Origin: Rickettsiales bacterium
GTDB lineage: Bacteria; Pseudomonadota; Alphaproteobacteria; Rs-D84
Length of the DNA stretch: 37,993 bases
Direction: 5' to 3'
NCBI GenBank assembly: GCA_031266915.1
Contig: JAISAB010000001.1
Location: 1-37,993 of the forward strand
Shown piece after piece: positions 10,104 through 37,562 of the stretch (within the stretch, counting starts at the first letter, position 1; each line of letters opens with the position of its first letter). The notes under the pieces are model-generated. The model saw nothing but the letters and a program-made list of their open reading frames with translations, was not told where the DNA came from and did not search any database. Both the position numbers and the translations under genes were made by a program.

Positions 10104-10109
10104 TACAAT
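10104..10109 (+). promoter_or_regulatory. -10 box (TACAAT) of structured RNA A
   Basis: TACAAT lies 7 nt upstream of the first helix of RNA A, the same placement as the perfect TATAAT boxes of copies B and C. No clear -35. Confidence 0.5.
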
Positions 10110-10115
10110 GCGTCC

Positions 10116-10293
10116 TGTGGTGGTGTATTGCCATCACACGGGGCTAGTAACCCTAACACAAAGCGTCCGAAGGACGTAAAACCTCCAAGCCATGGTTGGA
10201 GGGCAATGCCATAAGGACCTGTCCGAAAACATTGCGCTATTCTTTGTGATAGTTACTACCTCCAACCGCCTTTATATTTAAATGCGGTTTTTT
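10116..10293 (+). ncRNA. Structured RNA, copy A (unrecognised family)
   Basis: Predicted by eye from comparison with copies B (14641-14828) and C (34457-34644). Helices: P0 10116-10123/10131-10138; closing helix P1 GGGGCTAGTAAC (10140-10151) / GTTACTACCTCC (10252-10263); P2 CACAAAG (10157-10163) / CTTTGTG (10242-10248); hairpin P3 CGTCC-GAA-GGACG (10164-10176); hairpin P4 CCTCCAA/TTGGAGG (10182-10202); P5 GCAATG/CATTGC (10203-10235) enclosing GGAC-CT-GTCC. It ends in terminator stem AACCGC/GCGGTT plus T-run. P1, P2 and P3 covary between copies. GGTTGGAGG (10194-10202) can also pair with CCTCCAACC (10259-10267), which would block the terminator stem. Unlike B and C there is no HTH gene downstream. 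It does not match my knowledge of 6S RNA, tmRNA, RNase P RNA or SRP RNA. Confidence 0.8.
10264..10293 (+). terminator. Intrinsic terminator of RNA A
   Basis: AACCGC (10264-10269) / GCGGTT (10284-10289), extended by TTTA pairing inside the loop, followed by a T-run. Confidence 0.85.
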
Positions 10294-10382: not shown

Positions 10383-10536
10383 TAGCAGATAGTCATTAGT
10401 CTATAGTCTTTAGTGAGTAGTGATTAGCGCATAGTTTACAGTATGATAACTAAATCACTATACACTATTGACTAAAGACTACAGACTAATGACTATTTGT
10501 TATACGCTATTTGCTATCTGCTATACGCTAGTGGTT
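10383..10536. repeat. TAGTNNN palindrome joined to a TTTGCTA-family tract
   Basis: TAGTCAT/TAGTCTA/TAGTCTT units are followed by their inverse (to about 10495). TATACGCTA and TTTGCTATCTGCTA units of a second heptamer family then run to the porin stop codon. Confidence 0.85.
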
Positions 10537-14400: not shown

Positions 14401-14619
14401 CTATTCTTTGTTTTGCTCCAAATATTTTATGCCGGCGGCGAACAGCCGGGTGGCTGTCTGCTGCGATAGAACGTCCCGGCCGTGTTCAAAACGAACGATT
14501 TCTTTTCTATCCAGCCCCAAATATTTTGCCAAGCGCCGCCGCCCGACCTTGGTTTCCAATCGCGCGACACGCAGCGCGCATCCCAGATAAGACATTCTCA
14601 TCATCCTTATGCTTTTCAT
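14401..14619 (-). CDS. Small XRE-like helix-turn-helix protein (module B)
   Basis: The 72-aa protein is essentially one Cro/CI-type HTH: RLAKYLGLDRKEIVRFEHGR (about 29-48) gives helices 2 and 3, followed by ATRLFAAGIKYLE. Its central part is nearly identical to the protein at 34213-34434 while the first 15 residues differ. It has a strong ribosome-binding site (AAGGAGGAT, 6 nt). The gene starts 21 nt after the terminator of structured RNA B, so it is expressed by readthrough of the RNA or from the same promoter. No effector domain or toxin motif is present. A DNA- or RNA-binding regulator of the RNA module is inferred. Confidence 0.8.
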   Translation of the reverse strand: MKSIRMMRMSYLGCALRVARLETKVGRRRLAKYLGLDRKEIVRFEHGRDVLSQQTATRLFAAGIKYLEQNKE

Positions 14620-14640
14620 GACATCCTCCTTTTTTGGTTC

Positions 14641-14669
14641 AAAAAAACCGCGCTTTTAAAAAGGCGGTT
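14641..14669 (-). terminator. Terminator between RNA B and its HTH gene
   Basis: GGCGGTT (14663-14669) with AACCGC (14646-14651) read on the minus strand, followed by T7. It lies 21 nt before the HTH start codon. Confidence 0.85.
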
Positions 14670-14828
14670 GGAGGTGATTACTACAACAAGTATAGCATGC
14701 TTATTCGGTAAACCTTATTCGCATCCTCCAACCAATGGTTGCGGATGCATAGGCTTTTACAGTTCCGCATGCCTGCGGAATAACTTGTTCAGAGGTAATC
14801 AGCCCCATGGCGGCAACACGCCGCCACG
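14641..14828 (-). ncRNA. Structured RNA, copy B, leader of an HTH gene
   Basis: Runs from just after a perfect TATAAT (minus strand, 14835-14840). P0 TGGCGGC/GCCGCCA (14820-14826/14808-14814); P1 GGGGCTGATTAC (14795-14806) / GTAATCACCTCC (14670-14681); P2 AACAAGT/ACTTGTT; P3 TTCCGCA-GGCA-TGCGGAA; P4 GCATCC..CAACC/GGTTG..GGATGC; terminator AACCGC/GCGGTT with T7 (14641-14651 and 14664-14669). About 188 nt. Compared with copy C almost all sequence is identical except P1, where three positions changed on both strands so that pairing is kept. GGTTGGAGG in P4 can alternatively pair with CCTCCAACC at the terminator, a possible antiterminator. It could be a cis-acting leader, a free small RNA, or both. 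Confidence 0.85.
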
Positions 14829-14834
14829 ATTGGT

Positions 14835-14840
14835 ATTATA
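14835..14840 (-). promoter_or_regulatory. Perfect -10 box (TATAAT) of RNA B
   Basis: TATAAT on the minus strand, conserved with flanking GTGTATAAT in copy C. Expected transcription start about 7 nt downstream, just ahead of P0. No clear -35. Confidence 0.7.
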
Positions 14841-14872
14841 CACGAATTTATTTGGATAATCTACAAATAATC

Positions 14873-14992
14873 GATAGTCATTAGTCTATAGTCTTTAGTG
14901 AGTAGTGCTTAGTTTATATTGATTAATGCATAGTTAAACACCTAACTATAAAACTAAGCACTAATCACTATGCACTATTCACTACTGATTAC
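14873..14992. repeat. TAGTNNN heptamer palindrome upstream of RNA B
   Basis: TAGTCAT/TAGTCTA/TAGTCTT/TAGTGAG units and then their inverse. The same arrangement is found upstream of RNA C (34687-34770). Confidence 0.85.
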
Positions 14993-34190: not shown

Positions 34191-34214
34191 AACCGCCCCG
34201 GTCGGGGCGGTTTT
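34188..34214 (-). terminator. Terminator of the module C HTH gene
   Basis: AACCGCCCC (34191-34199) / GGGGCGGTT (34204-34212), loop GGTC, with A/T runs on both sides. Confidence 0.88.
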
Positions 34215-34434
34215 ATTCCGCTTTGTTTTGTTCCAAATATTTTATGCCCGCGATGAACAGTTTGGTGGCCGTCCGTTGCGATATGACGCCCCGACCGCGT
34301 TCAAAACGGATGATTTCTTTTCTATCCAGTCCCAAATATTTTGCCAAGCGACGCCGCCCGACCTTGGTTTCCAGTCGCGCGATGTGAATCGCGTATCCAA
34401 AATAAACCGTTTCTATTGTTTTTACACGTTTCAT
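34213..34434 (-). CDS. Small XRE-like helix-turn-helix protein (module C)
   Basis: The 73-aa protein is a paralogue of the protein at 14401-14619: ARLETKVGRRRLAKYLGLDR is identical, followed by IRFERGRGVISQRTATKLF. The first 18 residues differ. HTH of Cro/CI type, no effector domain. The ATG at 34434 has AAAGGAGG 6 nt upstream; a start at 34458 would translate the ribosome-binding site. The gene begins 22 nt after the terminator of structured RNA C. Together RNA and protein form a repeated unit whose role is unknown. Confidence 0.8.
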   Translation of the reverse strand: MKRVKTIETVYFGYAIHIARLETKVGRRRLAKYLGLDRKEIIRFERGRGVISQRTATKLFIAGIKYLEQNKAE

Positions 34435-34456
34435 AATATCCTCCTTTCTTAAGTTC

Positions 34457-34487
34457 AAAAAAACCGCGCTTTTAAAAAAAGGCGGTT
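34457..34487 (-). terminator. Terminator between RNA C and its HTH gene
   Basis: GGCGGTT (34481-34487) and AACCGC (34462-34467) read on the minus strand, then T7 (34457-34463). Confidence 0.85.
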
Positions 34488-34644
34488 GGAGGTAAACACT
34501 ACAACAAGTATAGCATGCTTATTTGGCAAGCCTTATTCGCATCCTCCAACCAATGGTTGTGGATGCATAAGTTTTTACAGTTCCGCATGCCTGCGGAATA
34601 ACTTGTCCGGGTGTTTAGCCCCATGGCGGCAACACGCCGCCACA
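34457..34644 (-). ncRNA. Structured RNA, copy C, leader of an HTH gene
   Basis: Same layout as copy B: TATAAT at 34651-34656, P0 34636-34642/34624-34630, P1 GGGGCTAAACAC (34611-34622) / GTGTTTACCTCC (34488-34499), P2 ACAAGT/ACTTGT, P3 TTCCGCA/TGCGGAA, P4, a GGC-TT-GCC mini-hairpin, terminator AACCGC/GCGGTT with T7. Relative to B, P1 differs at three base pairs with both partners changed, direct evidence for the helix. The GGTTGGAGG/CCTCCAACC alternative pairing is kept. Confidence 0.85.
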
Positions 34645-34650
34645 ATTGAT

Positions 34651-34656
34651 ATTATA
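34651..34656 (-). promoter_or_regulatory. Perfect -10 box (TATAAT) of RNA C
   Basis: Conserved position and flanks with RNA B. Transcription is expected to start near 34644. Confidence 0.7.
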
Positions 34657-34686
34657 CACGAATTTATTTGGATAATCTACAAATAA

Positions 34687-35111
34687 TCGATAGTCATTAG
34701 TGAATAGTGCTTAGTTTATAGTGCATAGTTAATAGTTCACTAATCACTATGCACTATTCACTAGTGATTAAAAAAACCGCCATCCCCCAAGTTTTTGTAA
34801 CGCTGACGCTAACAAAAACTTTCCCCCTTTATCAAGGGGGACTAGTGCCAAACCAAGATGAACAAGAGCTGAACCAAGTGGACAAGTGTCAAGTCTTGTG
34901 CCAATGATCTGTTCTGGGCTATCGCCCATCTTGTTTTATGCTCGTTCCCTGTATCTGACACCTGCCCCTCTTGTTTCACGCTTGTTCCTAACACTTGACG
35001 CTGGCCCCTCTTGTTAAAGAGGGGAGAATTTTCCGGCAACTTGTTGCCGATGAAAATTCGGGGAGATTACTGGTTAGTCAATAGTCATCTGCCTATGGTC
35101 AGTAGTGTTTT
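34687..35111. repeat. Module C flank: heptamers, hairpins and 21-bp repeats
   Basis: No gene. TAGTNNN palindrome (34687-34770); AGTTTTTGT/ACAAAAACT hairpin and the CCCCCTT/AAGGGGG hairpin (34789-34842); two 20- to 21-bp units (34844-34883); AAGTGTCAAGTCTTGTG; CCCCTC/GAGGGG and GAATTTTC..GAAAATTC hairpins (35005-35061). Same order as 14873-15370, shorter. Confidence 0.85.
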
Positions 35112-37447: not shown

Positions 37448-37562
37448 ATCAGTAAATAGTCATTAGTCAGTAGTCTATAGTCAATAGTTAATAGTTAATA
37501 GAGCCGTCGGCTTCGCCGACACATTCACTAATGACTAACGACTATAGACTAATGACTATTGG
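37448..37562. repeat. TAGTNNN palindrome between rnpA and yidD
   Basis: TAGTCAT/TAGTCAG/TAGTCTA/TAGTCAA units, a GCCGTCGGCTTCGCCGAC hairpin and the inverse units. The tract encodes the last residues (NSH) and stop codon of RnpA. Confidence 0.85.

Follow-up and report, generated by a model that had tools for sequence, protein, structure and literature searches.

The C4 RNAs of phages P1 and P7 (RF01695; targets c4-a1b1, RF03163) are antisense RNAs whose loci follow a recognizable plan. In phage P1, the annotated order is a1, b1, C4, a2, b2, icd and ant, and the Rfam C4 model located the immI region of this phage. Published work on C4 (PMC5320573) describes the a1/a' pair of P1 and P7 as specificity-determining and phage C4 maturation as an RNase P cut at GG. 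The same paper reports C4-like group 1 sRNAs in Acinetobacter baumannii, present in 21 chromosomal copies with a variable a' loop. Two further families bear on the comparison. sRNA-Xcc1 (RF02221) has been regarded as a trans-acting sRNA with targets that are predicted only (PMC2996969, PMC12189769), and its position upstream of symE has been noted (PMC12444791). IsrK of Salmonella Gifsy-1 (RF01394) is an intrinsic-terminator RNA with partial read-through into an antirepressor operon (PMC4825925), and its model overlaps the a1b1 part of phage P1 c4.

The window analyzed here, a stretch of 37,993 nucleotides from a Rickettsiales bacterium, contains three copies (A, B and C) of a structured RNA of about 180 nt. 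By ancestry, this RNA is very probably of C4 type, as a derived member of the superfamily. It is probable, with rather less assurance, that a C4-type antisense RNA locus (phage P1 c4 / sRNA-Xcc1) was amplified and remodelled into a cis-acting leader. The C4 homology is well supported, whereas the switching mechanism is one that we infer. The features of the window are as follows.

10104..10109, forward strand: -10-like hexamer TACAAT of copy A, a candidate promoter by position (TATAAT here in homologous copies)
10116..10138, forward strand: P0, the 5' hairpin of copy A, from the fold
10145..10151, forward strand: a1 of copy A (5' strand of P1), TAGTAAC, within the loop of local hairpin P1a, from covariation
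10157..10163, forward strand: b1 of copy A, CACAAAG, from covariation (second long-range helix)
10164..10176, forward strand: P2 hairpin of copy A, at the position of the internal terminator of C4 loci, from covariation analysis and position
10182..10189, forward strand: segment 1 of copy A, partner of segment 2 (helix P3), from pairing and covariation
before 10194, forward strand: predicted RNase P cleavage immediately 5' of segment 2 of copy A, by analogy with P1 C4
10194..10202, forward strand: segment 2 of copy A, GGTTGGAGG, 5' strand of the C4-type closing stem, from pairing and the RF02221 match
10203..10235, forward strand: P4 hairpin of copy A with internal loop ATAAGG / GAAAA, from covariation
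10242..10248, forward strand: b' of copy A, CTTTGTG, in the P5 loop, from covariation
10252..10258, forward strand: a' of copy A (3' strand of P1), GTTACTA, from covariation
10259..10267, forward strand: segment 3 of copy A, CCTCCAACC, from pairing and covariation
10264..10293, forward strand: intrinsic terminator of copy A, AACCGC...GCGGTTTTTT, from sequence; no co-directional gene follows this solo copy
14641..14828, reverse strand: copy B, whole RNA, from fold and position
14795-14801, 14725-14733 and 14685-14691, reverse strand: a1, segment 2 and b' of copy B, by position
14675-14681, 14666-14674 and down to 14641, reverse strand: a', segment 3 and terminator of copy B, by position
14401..14619, reverse strand: 72-aa Xre-like HTH ORF after copy B, with Shine-Dalgarno (SD) sequence AAAGGAGG at 14625-14632
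34457..34644, reverse strand: copy C, whole RNA, from fold and position
34611-34617, 34543-34551 and 34503-34509, reverse strand: a1, segment 2 and b' of copy C, by position
34493-34499, 34484-34492 and down to 34457, reverse strand: a', segment 3 and terminator of copy C, by position
34213..34434, reverse strand: 73-aa Xre-like HTH ORF after copy C, with SD AAAGGAGG at 34440-34447
10395-10500, 14880-14990, 34690-34780 and 37534-37559, both strands: runs of the repeat TAGTGATTAGTGCATAG...

The preliminary description had located the three copies at 10116-10293 (+), 14641-14828 (-) and 34457-34644 (-), with helices P0 to P4 in common and P1 strands reading TAGTAAC/GTTACTA in A, TGATTAC/GTAATCA in B and TAAACAC/GTGTTTA in C. 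Positions, strands and P1 pairs were confirmed, and the folds bear out the shared helices. All three copies fold better than dinucleotide shuffles by 4.8-5.4 standard deviations (z -4.8 to -5.4). The reported near-identity of B and C outside P1 also holds, as 13 of 176 positions differ elsewhere and 6 of 14 within P1. These two copies share the RNA, its upstream flank and the HTH gene (window 14401-14990 and 34213-34800) and hence look like a segmental duplication with coordinated changes in a1 and a'. Their proteins match HTH models, with scores below the curated cut-off only. The next sizeable ORF after copy A is convergent. The short degenerate repeat TAGTGATTAGTGCATAG... occurs in intergenic runs flanking many copies, on both strands.

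The earlier count of three copies proved to be an undercount of more than 20-fold. A covariance model (R1) was built from seven copies of the source genome, with A, B and C left out, and at a loose threshold it marked 50 places in that genome. Fifty-six copies were taken forward from the 1.09 Mb genome assembled out of pieces. With 14 copies of a sister type, this small gut-type alphaproteobacterium carries at least 70 C4-type copies, at least 56 of them belonging to the RNA of about 180 nt. R1 matched 40 of 60 genomes searched, with up to 32 copies in a relative. Since only 9 of 240 Alphaproteobacteria drawn contained a match, R1 is specific. In a motif scan of named genomes, all the matches listed were metagenome-assembled genomes (MAGs) labelled Alphaproteobacteria, proteobacterium, Rickettsiales and, once, bacterium; many were titled as ruminant or other gut samples. 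The source genome shows the highest per-genome amplification of a C4-type RNA found, set against one published count, the 21 copies given in PMC5320573.

Base-pairing across the source genome supports a structured family with selected covariation in P1, as first proposed. Across 55 copies, pairing is seen in 93.3% of cells; covariation scores 0.571, against 0.173 after shuffling and about 0.06 when partners are slid. Compensatory changes affect 6 of 7 P1 pairs and 5 of 5 pairs of a second long-range helix (b1:b'), and most compensatory change falls in these two helices. The local hairpin GGRG/CYCC displays such changes at all three outer pairs. An outer GGGG/CTCC extension of P1, paired in the minimum free energy (MFE) structure, was rejected after showing zero compensatory change in these copies.

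A mutually exclusive second fold is also supported, in which segment 2 (GGTTGGAGG) pairs with segment 3 (CCTCCAACC) around P4 and hairpin P5. Segment 1 is a further partner of segment 2 (helix P3), and segment 3 shares bases with the stem of the terminator. The pairings 1:2, 2:3 and 3:4 are stronger within copies than between copies, with permutation values that are not strict probabilities because the copies are mutually related. Five pairings (a1:a', b1:b', 1:2, 2:3 and 3:4) form and covary, so two folds compete; the three-way competition could come from one strong repeat unit. The MFE structure is the terminating fold (a1:a', b1:b', 1:2, 3:4), and the forced C4 fold is weaker by 9.2 (A), 9.9 (B) and 18.3 (C) kcal/mol. 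In copy A, P1a, P2, P4 and P5 are distinct helices within the forced C4 fold. The 1:2, 2:3 and 3:4 pairings exclude one another and lead up to a U-run, which is the arrangement of a transcription attenuator. The terminal intrinsic terminator noted earlier, recognized by the T-run that follows segment 3, is present in 53 of 56 copies.

The preliminary description could not assign the RNA to a known family; it is a derived variant within the C4/sRNA-Xcc1 superfamily. Its proposed Rfam check gave a mixed answer, since nothing matched at curated thresholds (the single match over the window at gathering thresholds is a tRNA), whereas the 3' half resembles sRNA-Xcc1 (RF02221) at permissive thresholds. 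RF02221 matched in 27 of the 38 relatives searched, whereas 14 control genomes gave no match. Its 23 matches in the source genome comprise 9 on R1 copies and 14 on the sister type, which has the same plan. Scores there reach at most 46 bits (E 2.4e-7 per genome); one copy of the same family elsewhere scores 58 bits, above the curated cut-off of 53 bits. The C4 model RF01695 gave zero matches in the source genome and no credible match in its relatives. R1 searched against sRNA-Xcc1 loci and P1 c4 gave no convincing match, which on the sRNA-Xcc1 loci reflects the narrowness of the model. Part of the sRNA-Xcc1 consensus, searched against plasmids, found no match.

The architecture is that of C4. 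The part order is the annotated phage P1 c4 layout of a1, b1, a closing stem with two hairpins, b' and a'. Covariation of 2:3, P4 and P5 and the forced fold of copy A show that the closing stem encloses two hairpins and that b' occupies a loop and a' adjoins the stem. Nearly all copies have GG at segment 2, whose opening GGT resembles the phage RNase P site. With sRNA-Xcc1, the RNA shares the closing stem, an AATA-containing hairpin, a second hairpin and the upstream a1/b1. An integron attC origin was considered and rejected, as the terminal boxes do not fit the attC consensus and every copy comes with its own promoter-like site and terminator.

sRNA-Xcc1 loci in other Pseudomonadota display the same upstream hairpin and P1-like pairing beyond the bounds of the Rfam model. 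The a1/b1 pairing lies outside that model and is present in both families alike. In 40 sRNA-Xcc1 loci, the guide (b' plus a') matched sequence of its own locus both upstream (14.9 versus 10.9) and in the 70 nt downstream that span the next start codon (12.0 versus 9.5); none of 3000 permutations attained either value. In the same loci, a control region lying further downstream was null. The a2/b2 of these loci lies at the ribosome-binding site (RBS) of the next gene, and the genes that follow include a BRO-N antirepressor and SymE. These findings lead us to class sRNA-Xcc1 as a C4-type antisense RNA, with a1/b1 upstream and a2/b2 at the next RBS as in the phage P1 layout. This assignment is absent from Rfam clans (no clan is assigned) and from the literature found. 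In three of the loci, BRO-N antirepressor-like ORFs start about 110-120 nt downstream, and an extra start codon at the a2/b2 site precedes them, comparable to icd before ant in P1.

Downstream of the RNA, a gene of at least 60 codons with an SD begins about 45 nt away in 38 of 56 copies of the source genome. In the named gut Alphaproteobacteria MAGs, the C4 domain is followed by a start codon at a median distance of 46 nt (quartiles 43-48 nt; 64 of 77 copies). The proteins are mostly short, with starts that resemble signal peptides by eye, and often cysteine-rich, alongside an Xre-like HTH set. An antirepressor operon, the target expected for C4, was not found among these genes of the source genome, which are of secreted type or encode Xre-like HTH proteins. 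A Pfam search with two secreted-type proteins returned no match. Paralogous secreted-type families occur near the RNAs (MKKSTI... of about 180 aa; cysteine-rich of about 170-250 aa), apparently duplicated along with the RNA leader. The remaining 18 of 56 copies, copy A among them, are solo copies with no downstream gene, so not every copy can work by attenuation. In one solo group, GGGG...CCCC hairpin elements (e.g., CTTTGGGGGTTGTCTCTCC...CCCCCAAAG) replace the gene just after the RNA; in another, GGGGGGCCTCATCAACCCCCC follows the RNA and is complementary to that group's own 5' GATGAGGCC.

P1 had been likened to a specificity tag. In substance, this reading is supported because P1 corresponds to the C4 a1/a' pair, which determines specificity in phages P1/P7 according to PMC5320573. 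Individual copies do not all have tags of their own: six copies share the eight-base a' window GTTCTTAA. The upstream a1/b1 is complementary to a'/b', with a cognate common run of 7.7 versus 5.1 (unreached in 5000 permutations), and upstream tags match in sister-type copies as well. A second tag copy (a2/b2) was sought at the gene downstream of source-genome copies and not detected.

The RNA comprises a 5' domain with a1 and b1 and a 3' C4 domain (closing stem 2:3, hairpins P4 and P5) with b' and a', and a tentative mechanism can be proposed. In one fold (a1:a', b1:b', 1:2), segment 3 would be free to form the terminator and only a short RNA would result. In the C4 fold, segment 2 would capture segment 3, weaken the terminator and let the polymerase reach the gene about 45 nt on; RNase P could also cut 5' of segment 2 and release a C4-like RNA. 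Occupancy of a1/b1, for example by a same-tag C4-like RNA from another copy, would favor the C4 fold, and the gap of 9-18 kcal/mol may be bridged by co-transcriptional folding or a partner RNA. Cis attenuation with the C4 fold as antiterminator has, in our estimate, somewhat short of an even chance of being the main mode of action.

Alternatively, the RNA may act in trans as C4 does in P1/P7 (PMC5320573): an RNA of about 85 nt freed by RNase P would repress other mRNAs at their RBS through b' and a', with a1/b1 as a decoy and the downstream gene incidental. The GGT opening of segment 2, the solo copies and the retention of a2/b2 in sRNA-Xcc1 loci are consistent with such action. However, a2/b2 is missing at the adjacent gene in the source genome, a terminator stands between RNA and gene, and bipartite matches at gene starts show no excess (605 versus 575-719 for shuffled guides, in a scan of low power); we consider this reading unlikely. 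Segment 3 (CCTCC) might instead sequester the GGAGG further down, either within the read-through mRNA or by acting in trans. This is a real alternative because CTCCTG segments accompany CAGGAG leaders (Fisher p = 2e-6, 97 copies), although common descent of copies and genes inflates the association, the source-genome subset alone is non-significant (p = 0.14) and GGAGG is a usual SD, which leaves it unlikely.

A metabolite or protein riboswitch, with one ligand for every copy and the conserved P4 GAATA/GAATA loop as sensor, would account for that conservation, the terminator and the recurrence of the RNA ahead of genes from a single broad class, those for secreted proteins. Yet the downstream genes have no evident common pathway, the tags vary, and a similar loop motif occurs in sRNA-Xcc1 antisense loci with specific RBS targets; such a switch is improbable. 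We give as little credence to a selfish, SINE-like transcribed repeat structured for its own propagation: high copy number and the common 3' flanking hairpins of two solo-copy groups would fit it, but the spacing to the gene start is tightly kept (quartiles 43-48 nt).

The RNA resembles its known relatives in part and departs from them in several respects. Like the P1/P7 locus, it has the same ordered parts, GG at the 5' end of the closing stem and a downstream gene. On the other hand, its sequence lies below detection by the C4 model, a terminator directly follows the C4 domain without a2/b2, and secreted proteins and Xre-like regulators stand in place of icd and ant, in at least 70 copies per genome. 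sRNA-Xcc1 loci retain a2/b2 at the gene that follows, for example one for a BRO-N antirepressor or SymE, whereas source-genome copies do not. The multi-copy group 1 RNAs of A. baumannii are fewer, and the available part of PMC5320573 does not describe a leader, terminator and gene arrangement. IsrK likewise ends in an intrinsic terminator ahead of genes but stops before the C4-like part; such an internal terminator is obvious in 6 of 56 type I copies and lacking in most.

As far as the literature was checked, there is no earlier description of the amplification, of a2/b2 loss, of the way the terminator is placed or of a connection between sRNA-Xcc1 and C4. The findings tie an Rfam orphan, sRNA-Xcc1, studied so far as a trans-acting RNA linked to virulence with targets only predicted, to an antisense mechanism that is well understood, and they predict the RBS of the next gene as its target. 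It is an unlikely though conceivable extension that a gut lineage of small-genome Alphaproteobacteria turned a phage antisense RNA into genome-wide addressable switches on dozens of surface- or secreted-protein genes, with copies of matching a/b tags toggling each other by RNA exchange. Overall, a phage regulatory RNA appears to have been converted to a widely used gene switch, which suggests that a phage immunity RNA may become a leader controlling chromosomal genes in reduced-genome bacteria.
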